Source: Asaia astilbis JCM 15831 | GTDB taxonomy: Bacteria; Pseudomonadota; Alphaproteobacteria; Acetobacterales; Acetobacteraceae | DNA: 64,000 bases | Assembly (NCBI RefSeq): GCF_000613845.1 | Contig: NZ_BAJT01000002.1 | Span: 186,001 to 250,000, forward strand | Direction of reading: 5' to 3' | Part shown: positions 13,732-44,369 of the stretch, in pieces | Layout: each line of letters begins with the position of its first letter | Numbering within the stretch: the first letter of the stretch is position 1 | Made by a program: the position numbers and the translations under genes | The notes under the pieces: model-generated | Database searches by the model: none | What the model was told of the DNA's origin: nothing | What the model saw: the letters and a program-made list of their open reading frames with translations, nothing else

Positions 13732-14655
13732 ATGAACCTGACGAGAAGAACCGCTTTGGCGGCGATTGGCGCGGCTGCACTCTTGCCACGCTCCCCTCGG
13801 GCCGCATCGGTAATCAGAATTGGTTACCAGCGATACAGCACGCTTATTCTGACGAAGCATCTCGGGCTTCTGGAAAAAGCGCTTGCGTCTAAGGGTGTCA
13901 CCGTGAGCTGGGCAGAGTTTGTGGCTGGCCCCCAGCTTCTTCAGGCTCTCGCTGCAGGGGCAATCGATCTCGGGCAGACAGGCGATGCCCCTCCCGTCTT
14001 TGCAGAAGCATCCCAACCCGGCGGACTGGTCTATCTCGGCTATGAGCCACCGGCTCCGGACGCCGAGGCAATCCTCGTTCTCAAAGACAGCGCGATCCAG
14101 AAGGTTTCCGACCTCAAGGGCAAACATGTCGCGCTCAACCGCGGGTCAAATGTCCACTGGTTTTTACTTGAGGCCTTGCGCAAAGCCGGTCTCAGCATCC
14201 ACGATATTCATGTCAGCTATCTGACACCGCCTGCCGCGCGCGCGGCGTTCGAGAACGGCCATCTCGATGCGTGGGCGATCTGGGATCCCTATCTCTCAAG
14301 CGCCCTGAACGACGAGACACGCATCCTCACAACGGCTGAGGACATTGTCCCCAATCGCGAGTTTTTCCTCCTCAGCAAACCCTTCGCCGAGCAGAGAAAG
14401 GATATGATCCCGGTTCTATCCGATGCCATCGCGCAGACGGATGTCTGGGCCATGGCGAACAAGGATGCCGTTGCCCAGATCTTTGCCAAGGAAACAGGTC
14501 TTGCGCTGGACGCTGTCAGACACGCTCTGTCCACGCGTCATTTCGGTTTTCATCCGATGGATTCCGGCATGGTGGCGGAGCAGACCCACCTCGCTGACAG
14601 CCTTCAGAAGGCGGGCCTGATCCCGAATGCACCAGCCGTGAGCACGCTCCTTTAA
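13732..14655 (+). CDS. ssuA: Aliphatic sulfonate ABC transporter substrate-binding protein
   Basis: 307 residues with a twin-arginine-like export signal (MNLTRRTALAAIGAAALLP). The mature part is an SsuA/NMT1-type periplasmic binding protein: VIRIGYQRYSTLILTKHLG at the start, AGPQLLQALAAGAIDLGQTGDAPPVF in the first lobe, and GHLDAWAIWDPYLS in the second. These motifs are typical of aliphatic sulfonate binding proteins. It converges on ssuB and ssuC, which lie on the opposite strand directly downstream, so binding protein and channel are separately transcribed although they presumably work together. A hairpin lies over its stop codon. Confidence 0.9.
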   Translation: MNLTRRTALAAIGAAALLPRSPRAASVIRIGYQRYSTLILTKHLGLLEKALASKGVTVSWAEFVAGPQLLQALAAGAIDLGQTGDAPPVFAEASQPGGLVYLGYEPPAPDAEAILVLKDSAIQKVSDLKGKHVALNRGSNVHWFLLEALRKAGLSIHDIHVSYLTPPAARAAFENGHLDAWAIWDPYLSSALNDETRILTTAEDIVPNREFFLLSKPFAEQRKDMIPVLSDAIAQTDVWAMANKDAVAQIFAKETGLALDAVRHALSTRHFGFHPMDSGMVAEQTHLADSLQKAGLIPNAPAVSTLL

Positions 14656-14667: not shown

Positions 14668-15408
14668 TCAGACCGAGACGCCAAGCGCGCCGAGGAGGCG
14701 CTCACGCAGCGCCTCGAAGGCAGGATCTGCGTGACGCCGCGGGCGGGCCATCGGGATTTCGACTTCTGTACGGATTTCACCGCGCTCAAGCACCAGAGCG
14801 CGGTCTGCGAGAGCAAGTGCCTCGTCGACGTCATGCGTCACGAGAAGAACCGCGCAATTGTGCTTTTTCCAGAGATCGAGCACCAGTTTCTGCATGCGCA
14901 GACGCGTCAGTGCATCCAGAGCGGCAAAAGGCTCGTCCAGCATCAGGAGCTGGGGCTCACGAATGAGCGCACGCGCCAGAGCTGCGCGCTGCGCCTCACC
15001 GCCAGAAAGAGTCAGAGGCCATGCTTCCGTGCGGTGACCGAGACCCACTTCCTGCAGAATGGTGCCTGCCTGCTGATCCCATTCTTTCCCGTCGAGCCCG
15101 AGCGTGACATTGTCTCGCACGCTCTTCCAGGGGAGCAGGCGATGCTCCTGAAACACGACCGAGACGTTTTTGGGACGCTGGATCTGCCCTTCGTCAACTG
15201 GGTCGAGCCCTGCAAGCGCTCTGAGTAGAGTCGATTTACCCGAGCCGCTATGGCCCAGAAGAGCGACGAATTCACCCGGAGCAATATCGAGGTTCAGGTT
15301 GCGAAGAACCGTCGACTCCCCGAAACGGCGCGTAAAGTGACGGATGCTGACCGCGTTATCTGCAATCGCAGTATCAACGTCAGGGCGCAGCGCTGAAGCA
15401 ACGGCCAT
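14668..15408 (-). CDS. ssuB: Aliphatic sulfonate ABC transporter ATP-binding protein
   Basis: 246 residues, a single ABC domain of the SsuB/TauB/NrtD group. Walker A GHSGSGKSTLLRALAG is near residue 52, the signature LSGGEAQRAALARAL near 135, Walker B LLMLDEPFAALD near 155, and a switch histidine follows in LLVTHDVDEALALADR. It hydrolyses ATP to power sulfonate import through SsuC. Its first codon overlaps the last base of ssuC, so the two are one operon. It is the only ATPase of this type in the window, although four SsuA-type binding proteins are present. Confidence 0.9.
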   Translation of the reverse strand: MAVASALRPDVDTAIADNAVSIRHFTRRFGESTVLRNLNLDIAPGEFVALLGHSGSGKSTLLRALAGLDPVDEGQIQRPKNVSVVFQEHRLLPWKSVRDNVTLGLDGKEWDQQAGTILQEVGLGHRTEAWPLTLSGGEAQRAALARALIREPQLLMLDEPFAALDALTRLRMQKLVLDLWKKHNCAVLLVTHDVDEALALADRALVLERGEIRTEVEIPMARPRRHADPAFEALRERLLGALGVSV

Positions 15409-16250
15409 TAGCGTGTTCCCCCATTCGGCAGGCGACGGCCGCGCCAGACAAGAAGGCGTCCTTCCGCAAGGCGCACGAGCTGGTCCGAGAGCAGACCAAG
15501 AACCGCATAAACCGCAAGGCCGACCAGAATGATGTCTGTCCGAAGGAAGTCTTCAGCATCCATCATCATGTGCCCGATGCCGCTCTCTGCATTGACCTGC
15601 TCGGCAACGACAAGCATCAGCCATGAAATGCCCACGGCAAAACGAATGCCGACCAGCAGATCCGGCAATGCGCCGGGGATGACGATATCTCGGATGGTCT
15701 TCCAGCGTGACAGACCCAGCGTCTTGGCGAGTTCCAGAAGCTTGGGGTCGATCCCCCGGATGCCCTTGTAAAGATTGAGGTAAACAGGAAACTTCACACC
15801 GAGCGCGACGAGCAGGATCTTGGGCAGCTCGCCAATGCCGAACCAGAGAATAAACAAAGGAACGAGCGCAAGGGCTGGCAACGTGCGTGCCATCTGCATC
15901 GGCGCATCGACCAGATCCTCACCAAGACGCGAAAGCCCTGCGATGAGAGCCAGAACGACACCAATGCCAATACCCAGAGCAAGCCCGGCAGCGGCCCGAC
16001 CGAGCGACACCAGCAAATTCTGAGGCAGTGTCTTGTCGAGTGTCAGAGACCAGGCAGTCTCAAGAATCTGGATCGGCGATGCGAGCAGACGCGTGGGGAT
16101 TAATCCCGCCTGCGCCCCGATCTGCCACAAGACAAGAAGAACGATCACCGACAGGTAGCGACGGCAGAGCGACAGGAACCCGCCAAATCGGAGCCCCGTC
16201 GGGCGCATCGACGCGCGTGCGGGAAACAGGTTCATGACCAGCTCGACCAT
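15408..16250 (-). CDS. ssuC: Aliphatic sulfonate ABC transporter permease
   Basis: 280 residues, six membrane spans of the BPD_transp_1 family. The cytoplasmic EAA-type coupling loop is visible as LLELAKTLGLSRWKTIRDIVIPGALPDLLVG, the SsuC/TauC signature. The homodimer would form the inner-membrane channel with SsuB. It is the first gene of a two-gene minus-strand operon and is divergent from the binding-protein/flavoprotein/ferredoxin operon that starts at 16364; the 113-bp AT-rich gap between them must carry both promoters. Confidence 0.9.
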   Translation of the reverse strand: MVELVMNLFPARASMRPTGLRFGGFLSLCRRYLSVIVLLVLWQIGAQAGLIPTRLLASPIQILETAWSLTLDKTLPQNLLVSLGRAAAGLALGIGIGVVLALIAGLSRLGEDLVDAPMQMARTLPALALVPLFILWFGIGELPKILLVALGVKFPVYLNLYKGIRGIDPKLLELAKTLGLSRWKTIRDIVIPGALPDLLVGIRFAVGISWLMLVVAEQVNAESGIGHMMMDAEDFLRTDIILVGLAVYAVLGLLSDQLVRLAEGRLLVWRGRRLPNGGTR

Positions 16251-16363: not shown

Positions 16364-17347
16364 ATGTCTCAGAAATTCTTCATGATTTCAGACCTTTTCC
16401 GCCTTCGAGCCAGATTCCCGCAGCGCGTCACGCGTGCATTTCTCGCGACTTTTGCGGCTTTGAGCTGTGGAATTGGCCCTGCTTATGCCTCTGATCCCCT
16501 GATTGTGGCCGATCAACGCGGGGTGCTCAGAGCCCTTCTACAGGCTGCGCATGTGGATCAGGATATCGGTTTCGATCTGCATTGGGTCGAGTTCGATGCG
16601 GCCGCCCCGCTGCTTCAGGCAATGGGTGCCGGGGCTGTCGATATCGGCATTGCAGGGGATGGTCCCTATCTATTTGCATGGGCCGCAGGGATCCCGGCAC
16701 GGGCGGTTTTGCTGCTTCCGCCGCGCGGCGGCGGCCATATGACGGCGATCGTCGTCCCGAAAGACAGCCCGATCCACAACCTCAAGGATCTGGCAGGAAA
16801 GAAAATCGCCACGGGCCGTGGCTCTATCGGTCATCTTCTGGCGCTGAGTCTGCTGCAGGACGGGACGGCTCTCCGACCTGCCTACGTCTTTCTCCCCCCG
16901 TCCCAGGCCAAAACGGCACTGGATTCAGGCGCGGTGGAGGCCTGGGCAACCTGGGAGCCTTACATCACGCTCGCGGCAGCCCAGACCGGCGCTCGCGTTG
17001 TGGCGGACGGACAGGGTGTGATGCCCAATAATGGTTTGATGGTTGCGAGCAACGCGGCAATCGCGGGCAAGAAGGCCCAGATACAGGCGCTGCTCAAGCG
17101 TATTACCCAGGCCTACGGGTGGAGCAGCTCACACCCGGACGAGTTTGCCGCGCTTCTCTCTCGTCAGACCGGTCTGCCCGTGGGTGTTGCAACCAAGGTC
17201 GCGCGCGAACAGATCACGATACCCGCTGCCATCACCCCGGCGACCATCGCCGAAGAGGCGCATGTCATCGACACCTATAAACAGGCCCATCTGATCGACG
17301 TAAAAGCGCCTCTCGCTCAGGCGTTCGACACCGGCTTCACCCCATGA
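16364..17347 (+). CDS. SsuA/NMT1-type periplasmic substrate-binding protein
   Basis: 327 residues. A signal peptide (to about residue 42, GPAYASD) precedes a binding-protein fold of the nitrate/sulfonate/taurine group: DPLIVADQRGVLRALLQAA, LLQAMGAGAVDIGIAGDGPYLF and GAVEAWATWEPYITLAA. It is closest in layout to the protein at 25733-26701 within this window. The last four bases overlap the flavoprotein start (ATGA), so it is translationally coupled to an oxidoreductase, not to a permease. It probably supplies substrate to the SsuBC channel encoded divergently next door. The ligand is inferred only as an organosulfur compound. Confidence 0.85.
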   Translation: MSQKFFMISDLFRLRARFPQRVTRAFLATFAALSCGIGPAYASDPLIVADQRGVLRALLQAAHVDQDIGFDLHWVEFDAAAPLLQAMGAGAVDIGIAGDGPYLFAWAAGIPARAVLLLPPRGGGHMTAIVVPKDSPIHNLKDLAGKKIATGRGSIGHLLALSLLQDGTALRPAYVFLPPSQAKTALDSGAVEAWATWEPYITLAAAQTGARVVADGQGVMPNNGLMVASNAAIAGKKAQIQALLKRITQAYGWSSSHPDEFAALLSRQTGLPVGVATKVAREQITIPAAITPATIAEEAHVIDTYKQAHLIDVKAPLAQAFDTGFTP

Positions 17348-18924
17348 ACCAAAAGGCGCTGCCTCACGCCTTACACGACCATGCCGCTGATCTTGTCGTT
17401 CTGGGTGGAGGGCTCTCCGGCTGCTGGGCTGCGCTGACGGCAGCGCGCTCGGGCGCGAAGGTCAGTCTTTTTGAAAAAGGCTATTGCGGCACATCGGGCG
17501 TGGCCGCCCCTGCTGGTCCAGGCCATTGGTGGGTCCCTCCTTTGCCTGGCGCCAGAGAAGACGCCGTCGCCGCCCGCCTCTCCAAAGCAAAAGGTCTCGG
17601 CGACGGTCAGTGGATGCATCGCATCATCGAGCGCACCTGGCAGAATTTGCCCGATATCGGCCGCTATTACGCTTACGAACCTGACGATGATAACAGAATA
17701 CGTCTGAACGCCCTGCGTGGCCCTGAATATCTCAACGCCTTGCGCCGCTATTGCCTTGCAATGGGGGTGACAATCTTCGACCACAGCCCCGTCCTGTCAT
17801 TGCTGCGGGATTCAACAGGCCGCGTAGCCGGTGCCTTCGGTGCCCATCTGCAGGGTACTCAGGGCCTTTATCGAGCCCGGGCGAACGCCGTTATTCTCGC
17901 TTCAGGCGGCTGCGCCTTTCAGTCGCGCCTGCTCGGCGCCGCCAATAACACAGGCGACGGCCATTTTATGGCTGCGGAACTCGGTGCGCAGTTCTCCGGC
18001 ATGGAATTCTCCTCGATCTTCAGCGTCGTACCCAAGAACACCACCATGTCCCGTTCCATGATCTACAGCTTTGCCCGCTATTTCGACACGCATGGCCGCG
18101 AGATTGCACCAGATGCTCAGGGTCAGGCCTCTCTTGGCCTCGCCGAAGCTCTGGCAGCCGGACCGGTCTATTGCGATCTGAGCCGTGTCCCTCAGGACAT
18201 CAGGGCGCAACTCCCTCTCATTTCACCCAATGTGATGCTGCCGTTCAGACGTCAGGGCATCGATCCATTCAAGGATCGTTTCGAAATTGATCTTGTCGGC
18301 GAGGGAACGATCCGCGGTGTGGGCGGCATCAAACTGGCCGGCCCCAACTGCGAGAGCGGTCTTGAGGGGCTCTTCGCCACAGGTGACATCGCCTCGCGCG
18401 AGGCCGTCACAGGGCCGATCAGTGGTGGCGGCGCCGTCAACGCCGCATGGGCGCTGGCCTCCGGGTGCCTCGCGGCGGAGGCTGCTCTTTCTACCGATCG
18501 CAGGACGCCCCGAAGGCTGGACCTGCCTGGCAGGGCCAAGCCCAAAACTTCAGCCGCCTTTTCTTCTGAGAGCCACCGCGCGATCCGCACAGGCGTGCAG
18601 CGTGAGATGCTGGACGCGTCTCGTCAGCTTTCCAGAAGGGCATCGCATCTGAAGCGCTCTCTCACGACACTCGATACGCTGTGGAGTCAGAGTGCCCCCT
18701 CGCCTGCTGACGCAAGCCTGCAAAATCTGAAGCGTGACCGCGAAACGCAGGCAATGCTTGCCGTAGCACGGTGGTGCACCTCGAGCGCGCTGGAGCGAAC
18801 AGAGAGCCTCGGCATGCATCGCCGTGCCGATGAGCCCGAGCTGAAAGAGCCCGTCAAACCCTATCACGTTCTGAGCGGAGGACTGAACGAGGTCCGTAGC
18901 TGGCGAGAAGAGGCGTTCTCATGA
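17344..18924 (+). CDS. FAD-dependent oxidoreductase, adenylylsulfate/fumarate reductase flavoprotein type
   Basis: 526 residues. The N-terminal dinucleotide-binding motif DLVVLGGGLSGCWAALTAA and the C-terminal FAD-binding motif GLEGLFATGDIASREAVTG with GGGAVNAAWALASG place it in the succinate dehydrogenase/fumarate reductase/AprA flavoprotein superfamily. No export signal is seen, so it is cytoplasmic. The next gene, overlapping by four bases, encodes a two-cluster ferredoxin, the arrangement seen in AprA/AprB. The whole lies between a sulfonate-type binding protein and an SsuD-like monooxygenase. This suggests a soluble flavin/Fe-S complex acting on a sulfur intermediate or feeding electrons to oxygenases; that is inference. 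True dissimilatory AprA is about 620-660 residues, so this is not a canonical AprA. Confidence 0.75.
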   Translation: MNQKALPHALHDHAADLVVLGGGLSGCWAALTAARSGAKVSLFEKGYCGTSGVAAPAGPGHWWVPPLPGAREDAVAARLSKAKGLGDGQWMHRIIERTWQNLPDIGRYYAYEPDDDNRIRLNALRGPEYLNALRRYCLAMGVTIFDHSPVLSLLRDSTGRVAGAFGAHLQGTQGLYRARANAVILASGGCAFQSRLLGAANNTGDGHFMAAELGAQFSGMEFSSIFSVVPKNTTMSRSMIYSFARYFDTHGREIAPDAQGQASLGLAEALAAGPVYCDLSRVPQDIRAQLPLISPNVMLPFRRQGIDPFKDRFEIDLVGEGTIRGVGGIKLAGPNCESGLEGLFATGDIASREAVTGPISGGGAVNAAWALASGCLAAEAALSTDRRTPRRLDLPGRAKPKTSAAFSSESHRAIRTGVQREMLDASRQLSRRASHLKRSLTTLDTLWSQSAPSPADASLQNLKRDRETQAMLAVARWCTSSALERTESLGMHRRADEPELKEPVKPYHVLSGGLNEVRSWREEAFS

Positions 18925-19268
18925 TCGAGCTCATCTTGGCGGAGCGTTGCACAGGATGCGGCACCTGCATTTCGATCTGCCCAAGTAACGTCTTCGAGCC
19001 GTCATCGGGGGCAGTCCCGATGATCGTGCGACAGGAGGACTGCCAGACCTGCTTTTTGTGCGAACTTTATTGCGAGACAGACGCCCTCTACGTGCATCCT
19101 GATGCGACTGGCCATGTCCCTTCGCCCGACACTCTCACGCCGCCCGGGGATTATCGTCGCGACTCAGGCTGGGGAAGCTGGCTGAAGACCCCCGTTACCG
19201 CAACGAGCACTGGCGCATGGGCGATGTATTCGCACGCGCAAGAAAACCCTCTTGAAGAACAGTTATGA
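18921..19268 (+). CDS. Two-[4Fe-4S] ferredoxin, partner of the upstream flavoprotein
   Basis: 115 residues with two four-cysteine cluster motifs: CTGCGTCISICP near residue 10 and CQTCFLCELYCE near residue 37. Each supplies three spaced cysteines and a fourth one, so two [4Fe-4S] clusters are likely. The remaining 65 residues form an uncharacterised C-terminal tail rich in Thr, Ser and Pro. It overlaps the flavoprotein gene by four bases, an AprAB-like layout. Its role would be electron transfer to or from the FAD subunit. Alternative: a general ferredoxin that merely shares the operon. Confidence 0.8.
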   Translation: MIELILAERCTGCGTCISICPSNVFEPSSGAVPMIVRQEDCQTCFLCELYCETDALYVHPDATGHVPSPDTLTPPGDYRRDSGWGSWLKTPVTATSTGAWAMYSHAQENPLEEQL

Positions 19269-19348: not shown

Positions 19349-20474
19349 ATGTCTGTCGAATTCATCGGCTACGTGTCGGCGCGTGAGCAAAGCGAAACCA
19401 TTTCTCCCTCCGGGCCGGAAGTCGATACCGGATATATTGCCGCAACAGCCCTGCTGCACGAGCGCGCGGGCTTCGACCGCGCTCTGGTCGCCTTCCATTC
19501 GAGTTCGCCCGAAAGCCTTCTGATCGCCCAGCATGCGGCCTCTGTCACGACGCAACTCGGGTTGTTGATCGCCCATAGGCCCGGTTTCACCGCCCCTACC
19601 CTCGCCGCGCGGCAATTCGCCACCCTCGATCATCTGAGCAAGGGCCGCGTTGCCGTGCATGTCATCACGGGCGGCAACGATCAGGAGCTCAAGGCCGATG
19701 GCGATTACCTGACCAAGACAGAGCGCTACGCCCGAACGGCTGAATATCTCGAAGTGCTACGCCGGGAATGGACATCCAATAAGCCCTTCGACCATAGCGG
19801 CGCTCACTATCATCTCGAGGGAGCGCATTCCGACGTCAAACCCTATCGTCAAGAAGGCATACCCATCTATTTCGGCGGGGCGTCCGACGAGGCGATAGAG
19901 GTCGCAGCGCGACAGGCCGATGCTTATGCACTTTGGGGCGAAACCCTTGAAGGGACGAAGGAACTCATCCAGCGCGTGCGCAATGCCGCCGCTCTTCACC
20001 ACCGATTCCCTCGTTTTTCAATCTCGTTTAGTCCCATCATCGCCGAGACGGAATCCCAGGCATGGGAGCGGGCAGCGGCAATTGAAGAAGAGATTCTGAA
20101 GCGTCAGAAACAGATCGATCAGCTTCCGACACCGAGCGCCCTCGACACAGCTGGCGTCTCACCCGAGCTGAAGGGCCTGCCGACCAATGAGGGCTCCAGA
20201 CGTCTGCAGGCGCTCTCCGCTCGGGGAGACCGTCATGATTCGCGTCTCTGGACCGGCGTGACTCGGGCAACGGGTGGTCGCTGGAATTCGACGTCACTCG
20301 TCGGCACCGCCTCTCAGGTCGCTGAATCCCTTCTCGCCTATTACCGGCTCGGCATTGGCACTTTTCTCATTCGAGCTTCGACCGTTGCGTGACGCCCAGA
20401 CCTACGGGCACGATCTTATCCCGATTGTCAGAGAACTTGTCGCGAAAGAGAAGGCGCACTCCCCCCATGGCTGA
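19349..20474 (+). CDS. SsuD-like FMN-dependent alkanesulfonate monooxygenase (two frame breaks)
   Basis: About 375 residues, a luciferase-like TIM barrel of the SsuD group. Family landmarks: LGLLIAHRPGFTAPTLAARQFATLDHLSKGR, HVITGGND, ERYARTAEYLEVLRREW, and IPIYFGGASDEAIEVAARQADAYALWGE. With reduced FMN and oxygen such enzymes split the C-S bond of sulfonates to sulfite and an aldehyde. The apparent end at 20392 is artificial: adding G near 20374 and C near 20382 restores the conserved C-terminus (GFDPLRDAQTYGHDLIPIVREL) and a stop at 20474, eight bases into the downstream receptor gene. No SsuE-type FMN reductase is in the window. Confidence 0.8.
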
Positions 20475-22683
20475 GCGACCTGACACCCCTCGCGGCACCG
20501 CTTCAACTCGTGCACGTCGCGGCAAGACTGCATCGCTTGTGGTCCTTGCCCTTGGATCTCCTGCATTTGCTTATGCCGCGCCCGTCCACAAGGCGGCACC
20601 GGATCGAAAGGCGCATGACAGGACGCAATCACACGGCAAGGACGAAAGCCGGAAAAAACCTGTTCTTGCCAAGACAGGCACAGAGACGGTCACAGTCCAT
20701 GCCAACGCCCGAACGCCAAGGCTGGCCGGCAAAGTCTCGCTTGGAATTCTGGGAACGCGCTCCGAGCTCGACACGCCCTTTGCCGTCGCCTCGGCATCCG
20801 CTGCGCAAATCCAGAAGCTTCAGGCCGCCGACATCAACGATGTTTTCCGCTACGAACCCGGCATTCAGGAAAATTCGAATGGCGGCTCGACGGCGTCAGG
20901 GTCGAGTTTTCGTGTGCGCGGGCTGAATCTCGACTGGACCAATGGCTACAAGATCGACGGTCTCGCGATCCCTTACTGGTATATCGATATTCCGTTGGCG
21001 AATATCGACCGTTTGCAGCTCGTCAAAGGCGCGTCGGCCTTCATGTACGGGTTCGGCTCGCCGGGCGGCGTTCTCGATTACCAGCTCAAGGCCCCGGTTG
21101 AGGACCGCCAGATTGCAGCCGAGGCAGGATATCGATCCGACGCCGTCTTTCGTCAGATGCTCGATCTCGGCGGATCACTCGATCACGCCCATGCCATCCA
21201 GACCCGGTTTTCGTTTGGGAGCGAAGTTGGAGATCAGTATAATCAGAGCTTCGTCCGCAATCTGTCGCTTTCCTTTACGACACGCGTGCGCCTGGCGGAC
21301 TCCCTGCACTGGAATTTCAGCAGTTTTTACATGAATACCCTGCAAAAAGGCATGGTGAACGGTGTCGCCGTTGCAAACGGCTTGACGTCGCTGGAAACGA
21401 TCAGTGGCAGGGCGCCTTTCGGAGCCGCAGGGTCATGGAAGACGAACGATCTGAAACGCTTCAGCACGGGTCTGGACTGGGATATCGCCCCAAACTGGAA
21501 AGCATCCATCGTCTACGGCTTTACGCATCTGGATGAGCGTTTTCCCTCCAATCAGGTCACTTTCACCAGCCCGACCGGGAATTACTACAACCAGAGTTTC
21601 CAGCAGACGCGCGTGCTGACCTATCATCAGGTCAATGCTTCGGTAGATGGTCATTTCACAACCGGCCCCTTCAGACATGACGTCACAATTGGTCTGACCT
21701 GGCTGCGACAGCTTTTTGACGCCGATGCAGCGTCCGGCACTGCGCCTTTGAAGGAATACGGCAATATCCATGTCAACCGCCCCACGCTGACCAACGCAAC
21801 GGCTTACAACCCCCGGCTTTATCGCTATGTTGATTACCTTCAGCTCGCGCCTTTCTGGATGGATACGATAAGCTGGCATCGCTGGTCGTTGATGGCCGGC
21901 GCCCGATATACCGATTATCATGAGAATGATTACCTGCCTTCGGGGAGCACGACCGCTGCGCATCGCAACAATCCGGTGACGCCCCTGGTCTCGCTTTCCT
22001 ACAAGCCTGAACCGGACATCAATCTCTATTTCAGCGATGTCGAGGCCATGCAGGCAGGCGGTCAGGCAGGCTCGACCAACGTCAATTACATGCAGGTTTT
22101 TGGCCCGATCCGCAGTGAGGAATATGAGCTTGGCCTGAAGATCCAGAAAAAACGATGGAGCGGCACGCTCGCAGTTTACCGTCTCGACACCGGGGCAGCC
22201 TACACCAACGCGCAGAACTATTACGTGCAGGACGGTATCTCTCGCTATCAGGGTGTTGAGGCATCGGCAGGCTGGCAGGCCACGAGAGATCTGACGATGG
22301 GTGGAAGCCTGACTTACCTCGATGCACGCTATGTGAAGGCCGCCGCCGGTTATGCCGGGCGCAAACTTGAAGCGGTTGCGCCTTTTCAGGCTGCATTCAG
22401 CGCAGATTATGCGCCACCTTTCATCAAGTCTTTCGTCTTCTCGGCAGGGTTTAACTACGTTTCATCGAGCTGGCTCGACGCCGCCAATACGTTCCGGCTT
22501 CCCTCCTACATCGTCGGCAATGTCGGAGCGAGCTACGTCGCCCATCTGAGCGGGCACAAGCTGACCTTGCGAGCAGGAACGCAGAATATCGGCAATGTTC
22601 AATACTGGGTCAGCCGCGGTAATCGTGGCCTCTTCCCCGGTGCGCCCAGAACGGCAACGCTGAGCGCGCGTCTCGAACTGTGA
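20467..22683 (+). CDS. TonB-dependent outer membrane receptor in a monooxygenase operon
   Basis: 738 residues from the ATG at 20467, chosen because it starts just before an export signal (TASLVVLALGSPAFAYAAP) and overlaps the repaired monooxygenase stop by eight bases; a frame start at 20389 would lie far inside that gene. A plug domain (DINDVFRYEPGIQENS, FRVRGLNLDWTNGYKIDG, LQLVKGASAFMYGFGSPGGVLDY) and a full 22-strand-type barrel ending ATLSARLEL follow. It resembles ferrisiderophore-type receptors, but its place right after an SsuD-like enzyme argues for an organosulfur ligand. The ligand itself is not readable from the sequence. Confidence 0.85.
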   Translation: MAERPDTPRGTASTRARRGKTASLVVLALGSPAFAYAAPVHKAAPDRKAHDRTQSHGKDESRKKPVLAKTGTETVTVHANARTPRLAGKVSLGILGTRSELDTPFAVASASAAQIQKLQAADINDVFRYEPGIQENSNGGSTASGSSFRVRGLNLDWTNGYKIDGLAIPYWYIDIPLANIDRLQLVKGASAFMYGFGSPGGVLDYQLKAPVEDRQIAAEAGYRSDAVFRQMLDLGGSLDHAHAIQTRFSFGSEVGDQYNQSFVRNLSLSFTTRVRLADSLHWNFSSFYMNTLQKGMVNGVAVANGLTSLETISGRAPFGAAGSWKTNDLKRFSTGLDWDIAPNWKASIVYGFTHLDERFPSNQVTFTSPTGNYYNQSFQQTRVLTYHQVNASVDGHFTTGPFRHDVTIGLTWLRQLFDADAASGTAPLKEYGNIHVNRPTLTNATAYNPRLYRYVDYLQLAPFWMDTISWHRWSLMAGARYTDYHENDYLPSGSTTAAHRNNPVTPLVSLSYKPEPDINLYFSDVEAMQAGGQAGSTNVNYMQVFGPIRSEEYELGLKIQKKRWSGTLAVYRLDTGAAYTNAQNYYVQDGISRYQGVEASAGWQATRDLTMGGSLTYLDARYVKAAAGYAGRKLEAVAPFQAAFSADYAPPFIKSFVFSAGFNYVSSSWLDAANTFRLPSYIVGNVGASYVAHLSGHKLTLRAGTQNIGNVQYWVSRGNRGLFPGAPRTATLSARLEL

Positions 22684-24401: not shown

Positions 24402-25705
24402 TCATGCAAGCCCGAGAGTCTCGCGCAGGCTCCCTCCCTCATAGCCCTCTGGCAGCAGGCCTCGCCTTTGCAGCTCGGGGCATAAAAGAGAGACGACATC
24501 GCGTATGCCATCGGGCGCGGAGGTGAACATGATGTTGAAACCGTCTGCCGCGCCGGACCTGAACCAGCCTTCCATATCATCCGCTACGCTTCTGGGCGTG
24601 CCGACGATGATCCGGTGTCCGCCTCTGGTAAATGTCCGCAAAACGTCGCGCACATAGGGTTTTTGACGGCGGATCCAGTCGACGATCAACGATTGCCTGC
24701 TTTTATGGGAATTCGTGCCCGCAACCTCCCCGATCACGATCGGCTTGTTCTCGGGCCAGACGGAGAGATCGATCCCGAGACTGGCGTAACGTGACAGGGC
24801 CCGCAGCGTCTCCGCCTGGTCGAGGTGGCCGAGATAAGCCTCGAAAGCGGCCCGCGCGTCCGCCTCCGTAGGGCGGATAAAAGGAGCAAGACCGGGCAGG
24901 ATCCGCAGATGCTCCGGGCCACGCCCAAAACCAGCCGCTTTTTCGAGAAGCAGAGAACGGTAGTCACGGGCTGCGTCCACATCCCAGGCTGCGGTGTAGA
25001 TCACTTCGCCGATCCGTGCCGCCAGAGCGACACCGGGGCCTGAGGCCCCTGCCTGTGCCAAAACGGGGCGTCTCTGGACTGTCGGCGGCGTATTCAGCGG
25101 ACCTGCAACACGGAAATGTGGACCGGAATGATTGAGAGGCCGTAATCCTGATGGATCGAGCCACTGCCCCGTCTCGCGGTCTCGTGGATAGCGTCGGGTG
25201 AGACACTATCCCATAGCCCTGTGACGACATCGACGAACTCTTCTGCCCGCACGTAGCGATCAGCATGAGCGACATGCGCGTCATGGCCGAAATTTTCGCC
25301 ACCGCCCGTGCCCGTCACGACATTCCAGCCCGCACGGCCCTTGCTCAACCTGTCAAGCGATGCCACCCGACGGGCCAGATTGTAAGGCTCGTTATAGGTC
25401 GTGTTGGCCGTGCCGATCAGCCCGATATGCCGTGACGTGACTGCAAGTGCTGCCAGCAGCATGAACGTGTCCCAACGCGGAATACCCGGGTCACGCTCAA
25501 ACGTCGCCGGGTCGGGCAAGGTCCCTACCGTGTCGAACAGAAAGATGGCGTCGAACCGGCCCTTTTCCAGAAGAGCCACATAGTCACGGTACCGCTCGAA
25601 GACGAGATCGGCGTCGATATCCGCACTGGGGTCACGCCACGCATCGCCGTTGACAGCGCCGCCTGAGAGATAAGCTCCTAAGGTAAAGCGACGCTTGAAT
25701 GCCAC
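24402..25705 (-). CDS. NtaA/SnaA/DszA-type flavin-dependent monooxygenase (one frame break)
   Basis: About 434 residues after repair. Start MAFKRRFTLGAYLSGGAVNGDAWR; then FDAIFLFDTVGTLPD, LIGTANTTYNEPYNLARRVASLDRLSKGRAGWNVVTG, all marks of the NtaA/SnaA/DszA branch of the luciferase-like family. These enzymes oxidise nitrilotriacetate, dibenzothiophene sulfone and similar substrates with FMNH2. A base is missing near 25190; restoring it joins the N-terminal part to RETGQWLDPSGL and the rest (VAGPLNTPP, VLAQAGASGPG). It follows the binding-protein gene by 27 bases in the same minus-strand operon. A sulfone or organosulfur substrate is inferred from that context. Confidence 0.8.
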
Positions 25706-25732: not shown

Positions 25733-26701
25733 TCAGAAACGGAAACTGGTGTCCATCGCCGCCTGCACATCGAGATGCGAGGGGATCATGCGCGTCGCAG
25801 CCATGAAATCGGCCACATGCTGCTGGGCGGTAACAACTTCAGGTGTCAGCGGGACGATGCTGCCCCGCATTCCCCGGACGACCTCCCGCGCAACCGGAAC
25901 GGACAACCCTACCTCACCCGCCCATGTTGCTGCATAGAGATCCTCATGCGCGCCCATCCAGCGATAACCGGCCGATAGGGCTCTCAGATAGGCCGCCACC
26001 GCGTCCGGTCTGGCCGCGATGGTGTCCTGTCTGGCGACGATGTAGCTTAGTCCGCTCATCAATTTGCCGCCGTTGACAATCTCGCGGGCCCCGTCGCTGA
26101 TCTTGGCATCGGCGATATAAGGGCCCCATGTCGCCCAGGCGTCGACCGCCCCGGTCTGCAAGGCAAGCTTTGCCGAAGTAGGCGGAATGAAGACGAAATT
26201 TACTGCATCATCGGGCAAGCCCGCTTCTCTCAAGGCTGCGAGCGTCAGGTAGTGCCCGGTCTGTGCCCGAAGGGTTGCAACGCGCTTGCCTTTCAGATCC
26301 GCAATGCTCCGGATGGCGCTGTCCCGCTGCACGACGAGTGCGGTTGTGGTTCCGTCCGTGCGTAGACCCGCTACTGCCCGGATGGGCGATCCCCCAGCCT
26401 GAGCAAAGACCAGGGGCGCATCGCCGATGGCCCCGACTTCAACCGCGCCCGCCGTCATCGCCTGAATAAGCATTGGCGCACCGGCAAACAGCACCCAGTT
26501 GATCGACGTGGCCGGTACAGCCGCCCCGGCAGCCGAGAGAAGCGAGCGCACACCGCCTTTCTGGTCTCCGACAAGGAGAGGTTGTCCCGCAGCCGCACGC
26601 GCGCGCGACGATGAAAGTGCGAGCGCACCCAGCGTTGTGCCGAGAAGCGCCCGTCGGCCGAGCATCAGGCGATAATCACCAGGACCAGGCGAGCTTTCCA
26701 T
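25733..26701 (-). CDS. SsuA/NMT1-type substrate-binding protein
   Basis: 322 residues. Export signal LGRRALLGTTLGALALSSSRARAAA, then LLVGDQKGGVRSLLSAAG, LIQAMTAGAVEVGAIGDAPLVFAQAG and GAVDAWATWGPYIADA, matching sulfonate/nitrate-type binding proteins. The start at 26701 lies inside the end of the TonB receptor gene but is backed by AAGGAGG eight bases upstream; an inner ATG at 26665 would remove twelve residues ahead of the signal. The overlap with the receptor implies coupled translation: receptor, binding protein and oxygenase in one operon. No permease is nearby, so it presumably uses SsuBC. Confidence 0.85.
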   Translation of the reverse strand: MESSPGPGDYRLMLGRRALLGTTLGALALSSSRARAAAGQPLLVGDQKGGVRSLLSAAGAAVPATSINWVLFAGAPMLIQAMTAGAVEVGAIGDAPLVFAQAGGSPIRAVAGLRTDGTTTALVVQRDSAIRSIADLKGKRVATLRAQTGHYLTLAALREAGLPDDAVNFVFIPPTSAKLALQTGAVDAWATWGPYIADAKISDGAREIVNGGKLMSGLSYIVARQDTIAARPDAVAAYLRALSAGYRWMGAHEDLYAATWAGEVGLSVPVAREVVRGMRGSIVPLTPEVVTAQQHVADFMAATRMIPSHLDVQAAMDTSFRF

Positions 26702-29191
26702 AGAAATAACCTCCTTCTGCGCCGTAGATTGCGGCGGAGCTGTAATTGGGATTGACCTGCAGGAGTGACGTTGCGCTCTGCGCCAGAGGACTGAGCGTCT
26801 GAGGCCGGTGGTTGAAGACGTTGGTACCTCCGATCGACGCAGCCAGACCGTGGGAGAACCGATAAGTCAGGTCAAAATCGACAAGCCACGCCGGAGCCAC
26901 GGTTTCGTCATAGGCTGCCCCTCTGTCACTCAATGCTTTGGTCGCAGAATAGCGCGACAGGCGCAGCGTCGTCGTCCAGCGATGGTAATTCCAGTTCACG
27001 ATCGCACGGAGCGTGTTGCGCGGATAGAGCGTCGTGATGTTTCCGATCTGACTACGAAACAGGCCGCTCACCCCCGAGCCGAGATTGACGTTCAGCGGGT
27101 TGATGCGAAGCACCGAATGCTGCTGCTGGTTCATCATCACTGTCCAAGAAACATTACCGTAACGCCCAAAATCGGACAGGTAATGCGCCTGCAGATCGAG
27201 CCCGAGTGCTCTCGTATGAGCGGCATTACGCTCATAGGTGTAGCCGTAATAGCGCCCGTCATTGGGAACGACCCCGGCATCGTGCAACAATTGGAGGACA
27301 CGAGGCCCTGCGACACCGGAGCCCGCGACGGAAATCGGCACGATCTGATTGAAGATATCGATCCGGTAGGCATCGAGCGAGATATCGAGATGACGCAAGG
27401 GTGTTGCGACCGCACCGACGCTGAAATTATGCGACGTCTCCGGCTTGAGCGCGGTCGCACCAAGTGCGCGCGCACCGGGATTATCGACAGAGGCATAATT
27501 TGTGTAGGATTGCACCAGCTGGTTCGTGCTCGGCAGGATACTGTAATACAGCGCCGTGCTCTGGAAATGTTCCTGCTGGAGCGTCGGCGCATGAAAGCCG
27601 TTACTGGCCGAGCCACGTAGGGCCAGCCAGCGCGTCGCCTGATAGCGGGTTGAGACCTTGCCTGCCAGGCATTGCCAAAATCGCTGTATTGCTCGTCACG
27701 GCCTGACAGCGCCACCGTCCAGTCCCGCGTGATTGCCTGTGACAGGTCGAGGTAAAAAGCCCCGTTCATGCGAGAATAGGATCCGGCCTGAGACTGTGAT
27801 GTTGCCCCGAGGCCCGATGCTCCCGGCAATGCGACACTCGCTTGAGGAAACACATAGCTGGCAGGATAGACATAACCGCCATCGGCGTAGGAGGCGCTGT
27901 CTCCGGCGGCAACGTCATAGCCATTATACCGATATTCAAGACCAGCGGCGACCTGCAACGGCCTCGAGAACACACCGGTGTTGAAACCGCGTCTGATGTC
28001 GAAATCAGCGGTCAGCTCCGAATTCGTGAGCGTCTGAAGGTGGAAATTATGCGGGCTGGTCGGGCCAAGGGAATTGTTGAGCGTGTTCTGGATACCCACC
28101 GAGGCCGCATCACGCCCGTAATTAACGCTTCCATCCCAGTGCCATCCGAAGAAATTGTCGCCCTTGATCCCCGTCGTGAACTGGAAGTCCTGATCGTCGG
28201 TCGTGTCCGTCGGCAGATATCCATCGGGATAAACCGATAGGATATTCTGTTGGGAGTTGGACGGACGATACCACGCGGAAGCGAAAATACTCCGATGGCT
28301 ATAGGTCGCGAAGGAATACAGCGTCGCCGCTGAGGACAGAGGAAGCTCGAGATTATAAGCCACGCTCTGACGCTGGCTCTCCGGCTGGCCAGAAATCTGG
28401 CGATAACGATCCCCTTTCTCGCGAGGATCCTGACTACCATTGGCCAGCAAGGGATAGAGCAGCACAGGCTTGCCGCCTTGAGTATACGGAACGTAGCCCG
28501 CGTTATTCGTCGCCTGATTGCCGACGAATTCAGCCGTCACGTTGACGAACCCTTTCGGCCCGAGATGGAAACCCTGATTATAGGACAGGTTACCGCCCCG
28601 CCCGTAATCGCCGAGAGGCCCGACGGTCCAGCCGTATTGATTATAACCCAGCTCTGCACGGCCACCATGATCGGCAGTCTTGAGGATGATGTTGACCACG
28701 CCTGCAATGGCGTCAGAGCCGTATTGCGCGGCAGCACCGTCTTTTAGAATTTCGATATGATCGATGGCCGCCATGGGAATGAGATCGAGATCGACGGGCG
28801 ACTGCCCCTGCATGGCGCCACCGTAGAAAACCGATGCCATCGTATGGCGGCGCTTGCCGTTGACGAGGACGAGCGTCTCATTGGCTGGCAGCCCCCTCAG
28901 CGAAGCCGTCTTGGTGGTAAAACCAAGCTGACCCGGATAGCCCGGTGTGTTGTTGATCGAAGGGTCGAGCGCTGCAAGCGCCGTGCGCAAACTTGTCTGC
29001 CCTGTTCGCCGCAGGTCGGTCGCGCTGTAGATCGCAATCGGTGCCATGCTTTTTGCAGCACGCACGGCAGTCCGGGTGCCGGTGACAACAACCTGCTCGG
29101 CTGAAAGAGAGGGATCTTCGGAGGCCAGTGCAGGCACTGCGAAGGCGCCGAGAACGACGCTTGAACTTGCAAAAATAAAAGGGGATCGCAC
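26676..29191 (-). CDS. TonB-dependent outer membrane receptor (one frame break)
   Basis: About 838 residues after repair. A signal peptide ending PALASED precedes a TonB-box-like stretch (EQVVVTGTRTAVRAAKS). The plug (LRTALAALDPSINNTPG, LRGLPANETLVLVNGKRRH, IEILKDGAAAQYGSDAIAGVVNIIL) is of the CirA/BtuB-like group. The barrel reads through to GKLAWSW at the C-terminus. The frame is lost at about 27663, where one G (top-strand C) is missing; the downstream frame continues the barrel (MQSYTNYASVDNPG and onward). It is the first gene of the operon with a sulfonate-type binding protein and an NtaA/DszA-type oxygenase, which points to an organosulfur ligand. Confidence 0.8.
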
Positions 29192-30025: not shown

Positions 30026-30523
30026 TCAGGCCTCATCGTCTTCCTTAAAGCCATATTCCTGTACGCCTTGCTGGTGACCATAATACCGGTAGGGCAGAAA
30101 CTTACCCGACATCGAGATGCGGACGCGGTCACCTTTCGGATTGGCTTCCCGTTTGAAATCGAAATCGAAGTCGATCGCGGACATGATCCCGTCTCCGAAT
30201 TCCTCCTGGATCAATTCCTTCCAGGCTGGACCGTTGACCATGACCATTTCATAGAACCGGTAGAGCAGCGGATCGGTTGGCGGCATCGGCGTCCCTGTGC
30301 CGCGATAGGGCACTTCGTTGAGCATGTTTTGCTCGGCCTTGGTCAGGCCGAACAGCGCGGCTGCCCTGGCGGCCTGCGGCTTGACGAGCTTCATTTGTCC
30401 CAGAAGGGCCCCGACGATCAGCACGTCGGACATGCCTCCGATCTCGTCGCAGATGTGACGCCACGACCAGCTGTTTTCACGTTTGACATCGAGTATTTTC
30501 TCAGTCAGCTCTTCACGTTTCAT
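30026..30523 (-). CDS. cynS: Cyanate hydratase (cyanase)
   Basis: 165 residues from the ATG at 30523, preferred over the frame start at 30568 because AAAGGAA precedes it and family members begin MKREELTEKIL. The N-terminal helical domain and the C-terminal catalytic part are complete. The catalytic triad is visible: Arg and Glu in YRFYEM and Ser in DGIMSAIDF. The decameric enzyme converts cyanate plus bicarbonate to ammonia and CO2. No cyanate transporter or carbonic anhydrase is seen in the window. Mobile-element relics lie on both sides, so cynS may have arrived by transfer or lost its partner genes to insertion. Confidence 0.9.
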   Translation of the reverse strand: MKREELTEKILDVKRENSWSWRHICDEIGGMSDVLIVGALLGQMKLVKPQAARAAALFGLTKAEQNMLNEVPYRGTGTPMPPTDPLLYRFYEMVMVNGPAWKELIQEEFGDGIMSAIDFDFDFKREANPKGDRVRISMSGKFLPYRYYGHQQGVQEYGFKEDDEA

Positions 30524-30608
30524 CGCACGATTCCTTTTATGTGAGAACGGCCAGGCCACCCAGTGCATATGGTAGGACTGTTTACCCGAGGATCATGGCT
30601 CCCACATT

Positions 30609-31137: not shown

Positions 31138-32225
31138 TCAGCTGGCTTCCGCACGATTCAGCGCGTCATACGCCGCGATCTTTTCGCGAACGACCGGCAA
31201 GAGATCACGGCCGTAGATCTCTGCATCACCTAGAGGGTCGAACCCACGGATCAGGAAATGATCGACGCCGAGGCGATAATATTCGAGCATGGCATCGGCC
31301 ACTTGTTCCGGCGTACCGACCAGCCCGGTCGAATTCCCCGCTGCGCCCGTCAGCTGTGCCACACCTGTCCAGAGACGCTCATCCTGACGTAGCGAAGACG
31401 CCGTCTCCAGCAAACGCCGCGATCCGTCATTCGGTGGCGCATGATCCTTGATCGGTAATCCCAGACGCAGCCGGGCTTCGCGAACCTGCTCGACAATATC
31501 AGCGGCTTTTTTCCACGCCTCGGCCTCGGTCGCAGCGATGACCGGCCTCAGAGAAAGCGAAAAGCCGGGCGAACGGCCATAACGTGCCGCAGAAGCCCGC
31601 ACCCGCGTAATGGTGTCGCGCGTTGCCGCCAGCGTTTCGCCCCATGTGGCGTACACATCGGCATGGCGCCCAGCGACTTCGATGGCTTCCGGGGACGTTC
31701 CTCCGAAGAAGACCGGCAGGTTATCGGGCTTGATGGCGCTCTGCGCTTTCCTGATGCGATAAAAGGCGCTTCGTGATCGAAGGGTGCCGTCGCAGTCCAT
31801 TCCTGTCGCAGAATACCGAGATACTCATCCGAACGCGCGTAACGCTCTGACTTGGTCGTTCCGACATCGCCATCACGCGCCATGTCGTCATCCGCCCCCC
31901 CAGTGATGATATGCACGGCAACCCTGCCGCCCGAGAGCTGGTCGAGCGTGGCCAGCTGGCGCGCAGCGACCGTCGGCTGCGTAAATCCGGGTCTGTGGGC
32001 GACGAGAAAGCCAAGTCTGGTTGTCAGGGCGGCGCCATAGGCAGCAACGATCTGGCTCTCAGGTGTGTTGGAGCCGAACGGGATCAGAACACGGTCGAAG
32101 CCGCCCTCTTCCTGCACCCGCAGGGCGGAGCGGACATAGTCGAGATCAAGAGCGCGGTCGCGCTCCCCATGGATGGTTTCAGAGCTGTTATTGAAGCCGA
32201 TATAGCCGATGAATTTGACGGGCAT
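31138..32225 (-). CDS. SsuD-like FMN-dependent monooxygenase (one frame break)
   Basis: About 362 residues after repair. N-terminus MPVKFIGYIGFNNSSETIHG; then LGFLVAHRPGFTQPTVAARQLATLDQLSGGRVAVHIITGG, ERYARSDEYLGILRQEW, and after the break DNLPVFFGGTSPEAIEVAGRHADVYATWGE through LIRGFDPLGDAEIYGRDLLPVVRE. A T is missing in a T-run (top strand A-run 31761-31764); adding it joins FDHEAPF to YRIRKAQ. It is a paralog of the enzymes at 19349 and 42129. It lies 105 bases after a TonB receptor on the same strand, repeating the receptor plus oxygenase theme. Confidence 0.8.
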
Positions 32226-38133: not shown

Positions 38134-39717
38134 TCAAACAGGACCGAGCACGCGGAAATTATGCGTGCCATCGCGCTCCAGCTGCGCGATGAGGCCGAAT
38201 TCCCAATCGAGGTAAGCTTGCATGGCAGCAGCTGCGTTGTCGGTGCCTTCATAGGGGCGCTTATAGACGTCATCGGTCGAGGTAAGAGCCGCTCCCTCCT
38301 CAAGGCCCGAGGCAAGCGGAAGGCCCTGTTGCCGCCATGCGTCCGTGCCCCCCTCGAGCACCTGCACAGCAATACCAGCAACTGCAAGTTCAGGAGCCGC
38401 CAATGCGGCAAGACGTCCGTCGGGAGAGGTCAGCACAACTTCCCTGACCTCCCTCGCCCTGAGCTGCGTCGCCAGCTCGGCGCGGCTGGCGAAGACCGCG
38501 CCCTCGACATGGCCCTTGCGATGGATCGGAGACGGAGCAAGATCAACGATGAGACGCTTGCCGCCCGATCCGGCGAGATCCTTAGGCGAAATCAACCGGA
38601 CGCTCGGTGAGTTCGGAGGGAGACGATCCTGTTCCGAGCCGGTCTCCCGAGCCAGATCATCCCACTCAGGCAGGATATAGACCTCGTTCCAGCCGAGTTG
38701 ACGCAGCCAATGGCCAGCCATACGCGCTCTGACGCCGTCATCATCGGTCAACACGATGGTGCCATGCCGCACGGCAATCCATTCTTCCGTCGCCTGAATC
38801 AGCTGACCGCCGGGCGCCGAGCGAAAACCGCTCAGATGCCCTGCAGCGAATTCTTCTGGCAGACGCACATCGAGACGATAAAGCGTGCGCTCAGGGTCCG
38901 CCTGAAGCGCCAGAAATTCGGCACTTGTCAGGCTTCTGACGCCAGAAGCCTCGGCAAGCTGGATCGCCCGATTTTTGGCGAGCGCTGCGTTCTCTGAGCT
39001 TGCCTTGGCTCCCTCCGCCAACTGCCCCCGCGCCACATCGAAGCCAGCGAGCGTCCAGCCAATCGTTCCGTTACGCAGCGCATAAACAGGATTAGGAAGT
39101 GCTGCGTTGACCAGCGATTGTGCACCGATGATAGAGCGCGTGCGTCCGGCGCAATTCACCACGATCGTCGTGTCAGGAGACGGCGCGTTATCACGCGCAC
39201 GGTAGGCCAAATCGCCACCCGGTACGCTGCGGCCTTGCGGGATGGACATCACCTCATATTCGCTGAACCGCCTCGCATCGAGAATGACAATATTCTCACC
39301 CGCTGCAATCCGCCTCTCCAGCTCCTCAGCAGGGAGCGAGGGCGTCTGGCGCTCATGCTCGACCAGCTCACCGAACGCCTTGGAGGGCACATTAACGTCG
39401 ATGAAAATCTCGCCGCCGCTCGCACGCCAGCCTTCCAGTCCGCCTTCGAGGACCGAAACATCACCATAACCAAGTGCTGCCAGCAAGGGCAAGGCACGTG
39501 ACGCATATCCCTCGCCATCATCATACACGACGATCGGCGCGTTTCCGCGGGGAATCAAAGCGCCGATATACAGATCGAGACGGCTCAGAGGGATATTGAC
39601 CGCAAATAGCGGATGCGCGCGAGAAAAAGGTCCTTCTTCCCGCAGATCGATCAGGGCGATCTCCCGCCCTTCGCGCAGCGCAGCACGGACGGCTTCAGAA
39701 GTCGTGGTTCGTGTCAT
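38134..39717 (-). CDS. Four-domain rhodanese-like sulfurtransferase
   Basis: 527 residues from MTRTTTSEAVRAA (39717), a start that overlaps the dioxygenase gene by 23 bases. Four rhodanese repeats in a row: about residues 1-105, 130-235, 265-370 and 385-485. Only the second keeps a cysteine at the active-loop position (VVNCAGRTRS). The others have Asp (VVYDDGEGYAS, VLTDDDGVRAR) or Ser (VLTSPDGRLAA) there and should be inactive in sulfur transfer. The enzyme may move sulfane sulfur or act as a scaffold. It is the last gene of a sulfur-linked operon with a cysteine-dioxygenase-type enzyme directly upstream. The substrate is unknown. Confidence 0.8.
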   Translation of the reverse strand: MTRTTTSEAVRAALREGREIALIDLREEGPFSRAHPLFAVNIPLSRLDLYIGALIPRGNAPIVVYDDGEGYASRALPLLAALGYGDVSVLEGGLEGWRASGGEIFIDVNVPSKAFGELVEHERQTPSLPAEELERRIAAGENIVILDARRFSEYEVMSIPQGRSVPGGDLAYRARDNAPSPDTTIVVNCAGRTRSIIGAQSLVNAALPNPVYALRNGTIGWTLAGFDVARGQLAEGAKASSENAALAKNRAIQLAEASGVRSLTSAEFLALQADPERTLYRLDVRLPEEFAAGHLSGFRSAPGGQLIQATEEWIAVRHGTIVLTDDDGVRARMAGHWLRQLGWNEVYILPEWDDLARETGSEQDRLPPNSPSVRLISPKDLAGSGGKRLIVDLAPSPIHRKGHVEGAVFASRAELATQLRAREVREVVLTSPDGRLAALAAPELAVAGIAVQVLEGGTDAWRQQGLPLASGLEEGAALTSTDDVYKRPYEGTDNAAAAMQAYLDWEFGLIAQLERDGTHNFRVLGPV

Positions 39718-40297: not shown

Positions 40298-40304
40298 GAA
40301 CGCA

Positions 40305-41099: not shown

Positions 41100-41138
41100 T
41101 GAAAAATTCCAAATGCCGAAAGGGTCGATACGCTGGGG

Positions 41139-42127: not shown

Positions 42128-42128
42128 G

Positions 42129-43232: not shown

Positions 43233-43315
43233 GATTCTTCTCCGCATTCGACGATATAATCTCGTGGATAAGCGCATTTCACATTGAGTTTCCGAAACAA
43301 TCAACGCAATAATCT

Positions 43316-43331: not shown

Positions 43332-43350
43332 GATCGTTAAACGAGGACCT

Positions 43351-44258: not shown

Positions 44259-44369
44259 GGCGCTCATGAGTTTCACCAAAGGGTCGGTTCAGAATAACTC
44301 TGTGGTGACAGGAAGCCGTCTCTGACACGCTCGAGGAGGAATCATCATAGTTTTCGGGAGAGAAGACCC

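Follow-up and report, generated by a model that had tools for sequence, protein, structure and literature searches.

An unnamed flavoprotein-ferredoxin pair encoded beside sulfonate-type importers may act on imported organosulfur compounds

A pair of proteins, a flavin adenine dinucleotide (FAD)-binding flavoprotein and a ferredoxin with two [4Fe-4S] motifs, is encoded in a 64,000-nucleotide stretch of the Asaia astilbis JCM 15831 genome (contig NZ_BAJT01000002.1, positions 186,001 to 250,000; hereafter the window). As judged from sequence comparison, the flavoprotein and its eight-cysteine partner constitute a separate family without a name, distinct from both AprBA and fumarate reductase. 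The pair shows a strong linkage to organosulfur genes. From its gene neighbourhoods we lean slightly towards the view that it acts on an imported sulfonate-type anion, in the place that SsuD or TauD would otherwise take; this leaning covers either direction of electron flow. The pair may thus be an overlooked route for obtaining sulfur from organic compounds.

The two genes are the last of three that overlap on the plus strand. The leading gene (16364-17347) encodes a 327-residue periplasmic binding protein of the SsuA family (TIGR01728 SsuA_fam, 175 bits, cut-off 163.5), with a start that resembles a signal peptide by eye. It is followed by the flavoprotein gene (17344-18924; 526 residues; FAD_binding_2, 62.8 bits, cut-off 20.4) and by the gene for the two-[4Fe-4S] ferredoxin (18921-19268). 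The 115-residue ferredoxin contains ferredoxin domains and eight cysteines arranged as two CxxCxxCxxxC motifs. Binding protein and flavoprotein, and flavoprotein and ferredoxin, are joined in each case by an ATGA in which 4 bp are common to both genes.

The association of the two subunits is conserved far beyond Asaia. A single-sequence scan of genome contigs gave no relative; in a genome scan the flavoprotein gene family was present at at least 545 places. Our main genome set comprises 79 loci that contain the pair, and further counts were made over 90, 91 or 108 loci. The two-cluster motif is found 3' of the flavoprotein gene in 76 of the 79 loci (any forward frame, within 700 bp). Under a strict coordinate rule the ferredoxin gene follows directly in 61, with an overlap of exactly 4 bp in 36 of those. 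The three remaining loci show a frame change inside motif 1, a Cys-to-Phe change, and no ferredoxin, respectively. The last of these is a Calothrix locus (L098) that has no ferredoxin within 700 bp; a second copy in the same genome (L190) has one. When each subunit was searched separately by tblastn against 72,556 plasmid records, both searches returned the same 59 records. The partner had been called dedicated in a first-pass annotation of this DNA, and these counts agree. Hosts of the pair include Pseudomonadota, Actinomycetota, Cyanobacteriota and Bacillota, and because the adjacency recurs across phyla it is not due to chance. The order is reversed, with the ferredoxin gene first, in two loci (L189 and plasmid pAMI5 of P. 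aminophilus). Two pairs lie close together on one strand in L069 and L070 (Bradyrhizobium) and in L280 (Paenibacillus).

The boundary of the family looks sharp. Among 398 Pseudomonadota genomes, with full scoring limited to three candidates in each, 12 including the host gave a match at E<=1e-25, and all 11 complete matches scored above 500 bits. The flavoprotein occurs in 8 of 200 genomes of the host's own taxonomic family, including the host, and in 1 of 3 other Asaia genomes. Many of the plasmid matches are from rhizobia and Azospirillum. Plasmid annotation labels the two proteins merely "FAD-binding protein" and "ferredoxin family protein" or similar, and among the matches listed we found no description of the pair in the open-licence PMC literature.

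We compared gene content within about 20 kb of the pair in the 79 loci with that of 40 random 20-kb stretches, placed at round coordinates on contigs that carry the pair in 20 of 21 genomes. Gene labels come from seed searches, which miss distant or other oxygenase families. The loci are related by ancestry, so that Fisher p-values overstate their independence and serve as guides only. At least one organosulfur gene was present in 72 of 79 pair loci versus 3 of 40 random stretches, and two or more kinds in 63 versus 2. The companions included SsuA/TauA-type binding proteins (58/79 versus 1/40), LLM-family flavin-dependent monooxygenases (59/79 versus 3/40), SsuC-type permeases (45/79 versus 0/40), SfnB-like genes (33/79 versus 1/40) and TauD-like genes (20/79 versus 0/40). 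Rhodanese (14/79) and O-acetylhomoserine sulfhydrylase-like genes (10/79) were each absent from the 40 random stretches. Short-chain dehydrogenases, taken as a neutral family, were found in 10/79 versus 8/40, and the trend was opposite for sulfatase (0/79 versus 2/40) and LysR (0/79 versus 3/40). Recurrent neighbours among 91 loci were AhpC/TSA peroxiredoxin (29), class II aldolase (25), 2-hydroxyacid dehydrogenase (24) and cysteine-dioxygenase-like genes (13). The first-pass annotation had placed the pair outside textbook sulfonate assimilation while tying it to sulfonate-type genes, and had named a lack of consistent sulfur linkage as grounds for abandoning the idea; the neighbourhood survey that it had proposed supports both the placement and the linkage.

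We then asked whether the pair accompanies the importer or the oxygenases. Three oxygenase families were scored, LLM, SfnB and TauD, over 90 loci with operon predictions and over the 108-locus set; both use rough open reading frame calls, and some loci end at contig ends. Predicted operons include importer genes in 41 of 90 loci and scored oxygenases in 29: an importer without an oxygenase in 22, both in 19, and an oxygenase without an importer in 10. Across the 108 loci, 57 have an importer and a scored oxygenase and 22 the importer only. The importer-only state is scattered over the family tree, with 12 label changes; this tree carries a long-branch warning that includes L023, the Asaia siamensis locus. 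In the plasmid survey, which covered 18 stretches of the 59 records, 17 of them annotated, five annotated stretches combine the pair with an ATP-binding cassette (ABC) importer in one operon, with no annotated oxygenase in the stretch. These are from P. aminophilus pAMI5, P. aminophilus pAMI6, Paenibacillus (with two pairs), Roseateles (flanked by rhamnose and other genes) and S. meliloti Ak57 (preceded by a thioredoxin gene).

Binding proteins near pairs were also scored against family models. Among ten from mostly divergent loci, those of L184-L186 pass SsuA_fam (245-292 bits) and that of L187 passes the taurine equivalog model (428 bits, cut-off 304), which was applied to the binding protein only. 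The order in L187, binding protein-ATPase-permease-flavoprotein-ferredoxin, corresponds to that of tauABC, and the pair stands where Escherichia coli has tauD. SsuA_fam was the best model for each of ten more binding proteins, five of which pass its cut-off. Two of ten pair genomes (G538, G310) lack both SsuD (E<=1e-60) and TauD (E<=1e-20). Since no companion other than the importer is constant in the simplest loci, the most likely substrate is a sulfonate-type anion that has been imported. Separately, an operon of Paraburkholderia phymatum (Bphy_7232-37) with a desulfurization monooxygenase and a sulfonate-type ABC transporter is reported in PMC8305402 and PMC5748707 to be nodule-expressed and NifA-dependent.

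Several observations weigh against this assignment. Neither an importer gene nor a scored oxygenase is present in 39 of the 90 predicted operons; among the 108 loci, 21 have a scored oxygenase without an importer part and 8 have neither. Six of the first ten binding proteins and five of the second ten fall under their cut-offs, and the L187 pair has an SfnB-like gene some 7 kb away. Oxygenases beyond the three scored families occur, such as a 2-oxoglutarate oxygenase in L014 and a P450 in L222, and an apparent absence of oxygenases is to be read with the truncation of some loci at contig ends and the incomplete plasmid gene tables in mind. Eight of the ten pair genomes also have SsuD and five have TauD-like genes, so that the pair would mostly add to those routes. 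No known set of sulfur-chemistry residues is conserved in the 28-row family alignment. Residues around W62 do correlate with the presence of an oxygenase (54 with and 10 without, versus 14 and 16; p=0.00035; 14 of 108 loci, in which the motif was not captured, were dropped), but the split follows clades and is therefore not relied on here.

The flavoprotein was compared with known families by models, profiles, structure and phylogeny. NCBIfam models all score far under their cut-offs: TfrA 85, SdhA/FrdA 73, L-aspartate oxidase (NadB; TIGR00551) 70.9 against a cut-off of 452.75, and AprA (NF005331) 36.4 bits against 557, the AprA model thus ranking under the other three. A profile of 52 relatives searched against the PDB gave 108 bits for SdhA (in pieces), 91 for FrdA, 88 for the Methanothermococcus 3'-phosphoadenosine 5'-phosphosulfate (PAPS) reductase 8a8o, 72 for NadB and 58 for AprA; the alignment to 8a8o is one stretch along nearly the whole profile. 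An AlphaFold model of the flavoprotein (pLDDT 85.7, pTM 0.89) was matched about equally by human SDHA, fumarate reductase and 8a8o in Foldseek (TM-score 0.75-0.78, 18-21% identity), with 8a8o at rank 3 (0.77, 19%) and AprA 3gyx at rank 45 (0.74, 15%). A tree of 45 proteins places all 28 family members on one side of a branch with SH-aLRT 100, separate from FrdA/SdhA/NadB (99) as well as from AprA together with a second family, called family X below (97); the AprA plus family X grouping carries a long-branch warning. The four Pseudomonadota proteins used as AprA (385-409 bits, from 17 places at 368-409 bits) are likewise under the NF005331 cut-off.

The residue columns agree with this separation. 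G52, E221, R324, R352 and W369 are invariant in the 28 family rows, and N366 (27/28), W62 (26/28) and R303 (24/28, K in 3) nearly so. FrdA residues H232, H355 and R390, at positions which we take to be those of the substrate residues, are not kept: their columns contain Y24 F4, E26 D2 and G28, respectively. The presumed column of the histidine that carries covalent FAD in FrdA and succinate dehydrogenase (SDH) is G52 in 28/28 rows, and the FAD of the flavoprotein is predicted to be non-covalent. The AprA residues that we assume to be catalytic (A. fulgidus numbering) are not kept either, with H13 V6 L4 T4 I1 at N74, I14 V7 L7 at R265, and T16 V6 I3 with a single L, S and G at H398. Pyr_redox and NAD_binding_8 matches are under cut-off and lie at the FAD-binding N-terminus, and the flavoprotein has no separate NAD(P)H-binding domain. 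Membership of AprA, and of fumarate reductase, SDH or NadB, was rejected on model scores, tree position and residue columns alike. Because the scores are far under cut-off, the tree position is separate and the catalytic residues that we assumed for both groups are absent, we regard the pair as a family of its own. The earlier term "AprA-like" is correct only in part, and AprA kinship is not supported; the model comparison suggested with it brought no family near its cut-off, and the tree did not group the pair with a known non-sulfur enzyme.

The pair thus shares features with several known systems. As in 8a8o and AprBA, an FAD_binding_2 catalytic subunit is encoded next to a two-[4Fe-4S] ferredoxin subunit in a sulfur context, and AprA also has a glycine at the covalent-FAD histidine position. 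In contrast, identity is 19% to 8a8o and 15% to AprA 3gyx, and the pair forms its own clade without the assumed active-site residues. AprB has a tryptophan after the first cysteine of motif 2, presumably on the electron path. The corresponding tryptophan in MtPAPSR is Trp42, according to PMC10322725. The pair ferredoxins that were inspected have Q, E or H at this position, and family X has W there. SdhA and FrdA provide the best fold matches (TM-score 0.73-0.78 among the top 20) and share a C-terminal ESRGxHxRxD motif, whereas identity is 17-21% and the pair flavoprotein lacks H232, H355, R390 and the covalent-FAD histidine. Their partners SdhB and FrdB contain three cluster types and work with membrane anchors; the 115-residue partner has two 4Fe-4S motifs, and an LLM gene and a TonB receptor gene, not membrane anchors, lie downstream. 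NadB resembles the flavoprotein in size, in its non-covalent FAD (predicted for the flavoprotein) and in a nearly full-length profile alignment (72 bits), but is not known to have an iron-sulfur partner. Finally, the importer proteins beside the pair belong to the Ssu and Tau families, and once a taurine-type importer precedes it, although the pair is part of neither SsuABCDE nor TauABCD. In those systems desulfonation requires O2 through SsuD or TauD.

A second flavoprotein-ferredoxin pair was recovered by a search of 150 genomes with the AprA model. This family X was found at 10 places (L204-L213; 275-302 bits against the cut-off of 557) in Pseudomonadota; five come from a single family of another class and five from the class to which the window belongs. 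The matched flavoprotein stretches span 530-541 residues, and a ferredoxin reading frame of 77-95 residues with a CWYC motif was found in 9/10. Family X resembles the present pair in being a separate FAD/ferredoxin pair beside SsuABC-like importers, whose genes are near it in 9/10 loci. It differs in grouping with AprA in the tree, with the long-branch warning already given, and in the CWYC ferredoxin, which resembles the CWEC of the AprB type. Thus, two separate flavoprotein-ferredoxin lineages occur beside SsuABC-like importers.

We propose that the flavoprotein and the ferredoxin would form one cytoplasmic enzyme complex on an AprBA-like plan, with a catalytic flavoprotein and a two-[4Fe-4S] electron-transfer subunit. 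The substrate would be a small anion of the sulfonate type that the neighbouring SsuA/TauA-type ABC importer takes up, and the invariant R324 and R352 with the near-invariant R303 would fit an anionic ligand. The combination of an FAD subunit and a two-[4Fe-4S] partner, without a separate NAD(P)H domain, suggests that electrons would move between an external carrier and the small substrate at the flavin. In the preferred version, a cellular low-potential donor would pass electrons through the two clusters to FAD, and the reduced flavin would reductively release sulfite from the sulfonate; sulfite, the likeliest useful product, would then enter the ordinary assimilatory route. In the oxidative version, nearly as likely, the sulfonate would be dehydrogenated and electrons would leave through the ferredoxin. 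Complex formation, cofactor load, use of the imported compound, electron direction and product are all inferred. A reductive direction has been proposed for 8a8o and AprBA in PMC10322725. Only slight preference can be given to it here, by analogy; the active-site residues of the pair differ from those of both. An oxygen-independent release of sulfur appears favoured among the functions raised at first pass. Its most specific form, a ferredoxin-driven flavoprotein desulfonase, coupled to import in four phyla and reductively freeing sulfite from sulfonates or sulfate esters, is tentative and on balance doubtful.

Another function raised at first pass was electron supply. In the form considered here, the pair would, in SsuE's stead, reduce flavin for, or directly feed, the nearby flavin mononucleotide (FMN)-dependent LLM and SfnB/DszC-like monooxygenases. 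The frequency of these neighbours (LLM in 59 and SfnB-like genes in 33 of the 79 loci) would suit it, as would the scarcity of SsuE- or RutF-type flavin reductases, found in 10/79 pair loci versus 15/20 canonical SsuD loci (20 of 26 places). This contrast is gone under a matched control: beside the same LLM type (NtaA/DmoA-type), a reductase occurs in 5/37 loci with the pair and 3/20 without it (20 of 57 places, mostly top scores; p=1). Since reductases are equally rare near the same LLM without the pair, the idea is left without specific support, and a substitute for SsuE was rejected. It also sits badly with the 22 of 108 loci that have importer genes and no scored oxygenase, with the lack of a separate NAD(P)H-binding domain, and with the host genome, which elsewhere has one FMN_red gene and one Flavin_Reduct gene (the latter in two pieces, in different frames). 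The same genome has an SsuD over cut-off on another contig. We consider electron supply unlikely, and the claim was not borne out.

Handling of sulfite or activated sulfate by flavin-sulfite chemistry, as in AprBA or the Methanothermococcus PAPS reductase, is about as improbable, despite the common two-subunit plan, the one-stretch alignment and third Foldseek rank of 8a8o, and the presence of cysD and cysN some 7 kb away from the pair on P. aminophilus pAMI6. The 36-bit AprA score and the absence of the assumed AprA residues and AprB tryptophan argue against it, and CysH, CysI and CysD were found beside none of the 79 pairs and CysN beside one. Two genes of the PAPS_reduct family, interpreted as cysH and cysD, are present in the host genome, and a role in place of a missing CysH was rejected for that reason. 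An enzyme for the carbon part of the organosulfur compound, either a dehydrogenase or an ene-reductase, is given a similarly low chance; it would use an adapted complex II mechanism on a dicarboxylate-like sulfonate, or taurine-dehydrogenase-like amine oxidation, and coincides in part with the oxidative form of the proposal above. The nearness of fold and profile to SdhA/FrdA is consistent with it, as are the aldolase (25/91) and 2-hydroxyacid dehydrogenase (24/91) neighbours, but H232, H355 and R390 of FrdA (positions as we assume them) are not kept and two importer-only loci, in Paenibacillus and on pAMI5, have no annotated aldolase or hydroxyacid dehydrogenase. Among these possibilities we retain action of the pair on an imported sulfonate-type anion.

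In the window, the pair lies among further genes of this kind. Divergent from the binding-protein gene and 113 bp from it is an SsuC-like ABC permease gene (15408-16250, minus strand; PRK11365, 232 bits, below the cut-off of 347); an arrangement of three genes with 4-base overlaps opposite ssuC had been noted at first pass, and the reading frames and ATGA junctions confirm it. An SsuB-like ABC ATPase (14668-15408, minus; PRK11247, 253 bits, below the cut-off of 395) and a second SsuA-family binding protein (13732-14655, plus; TIGR01728, 217 bits, cut-off 163.5) are encoded beyond it. On the plus strand, an SsuD-like LLM monooxygenase gene (19349-20392; SsuD model 198 bits, cut-off 518) begins 80 bp 3' of the ferredoxin gene and overlaps by 4 bp with a TonB-dependent receptor gene (20389-22683, plus; TIGR01783, 237 bits, cut-off 223.5). 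Asaia siamensis (L023) has the same order of binding protein, flavoprotein, ferredoxin and LLM, with a TonB gene next. As also noticed at first pass, the window has no SsuE-type FMN reductase: phmmer searches with E. coli SsuE, RutF and WrbA against its reading frames of at least 100 residues gave no match at E<10.

Farther along, positions 38134-45077 contain rhodanese, cysteine-dioxygenase-like, class II aldolase, 2-hydroxyacid dehydrogenase, LLM, LysR-type helix-turn-helix and AhpC/TSA genes, kinds that mostly recur around flavoprotein-ferredoxin pairs in other genomes. Three genes, two for LLM monooxygenases and one for a TonB receptor (24402-25705, 31138-32225 and 26676-29191; minus strand), are each in two pieces, like the host flavin reductase; sequencing errors and pseudogenes are equally likely causes. 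A cyanate lyase gene (30026-30568, minus) lies amid the organosulfur island, and a 711-residue Hint-domain protein is encoded at 46202-48337.

Aerobic desulfurization of sulfonates is taught as the work of oxygenases. A flavoprotein-ferredoxin pair beside the importer, sometimes without SsuD, SfnB or TauD, opens a second chemistry to direct test, and would give a role to a widespread family known only by generic annotation labels. If this chemistry is oxygen-independent, one may speculate that bacteria in low-oxygen nodules or biofilms could use it to mine organosulfur.

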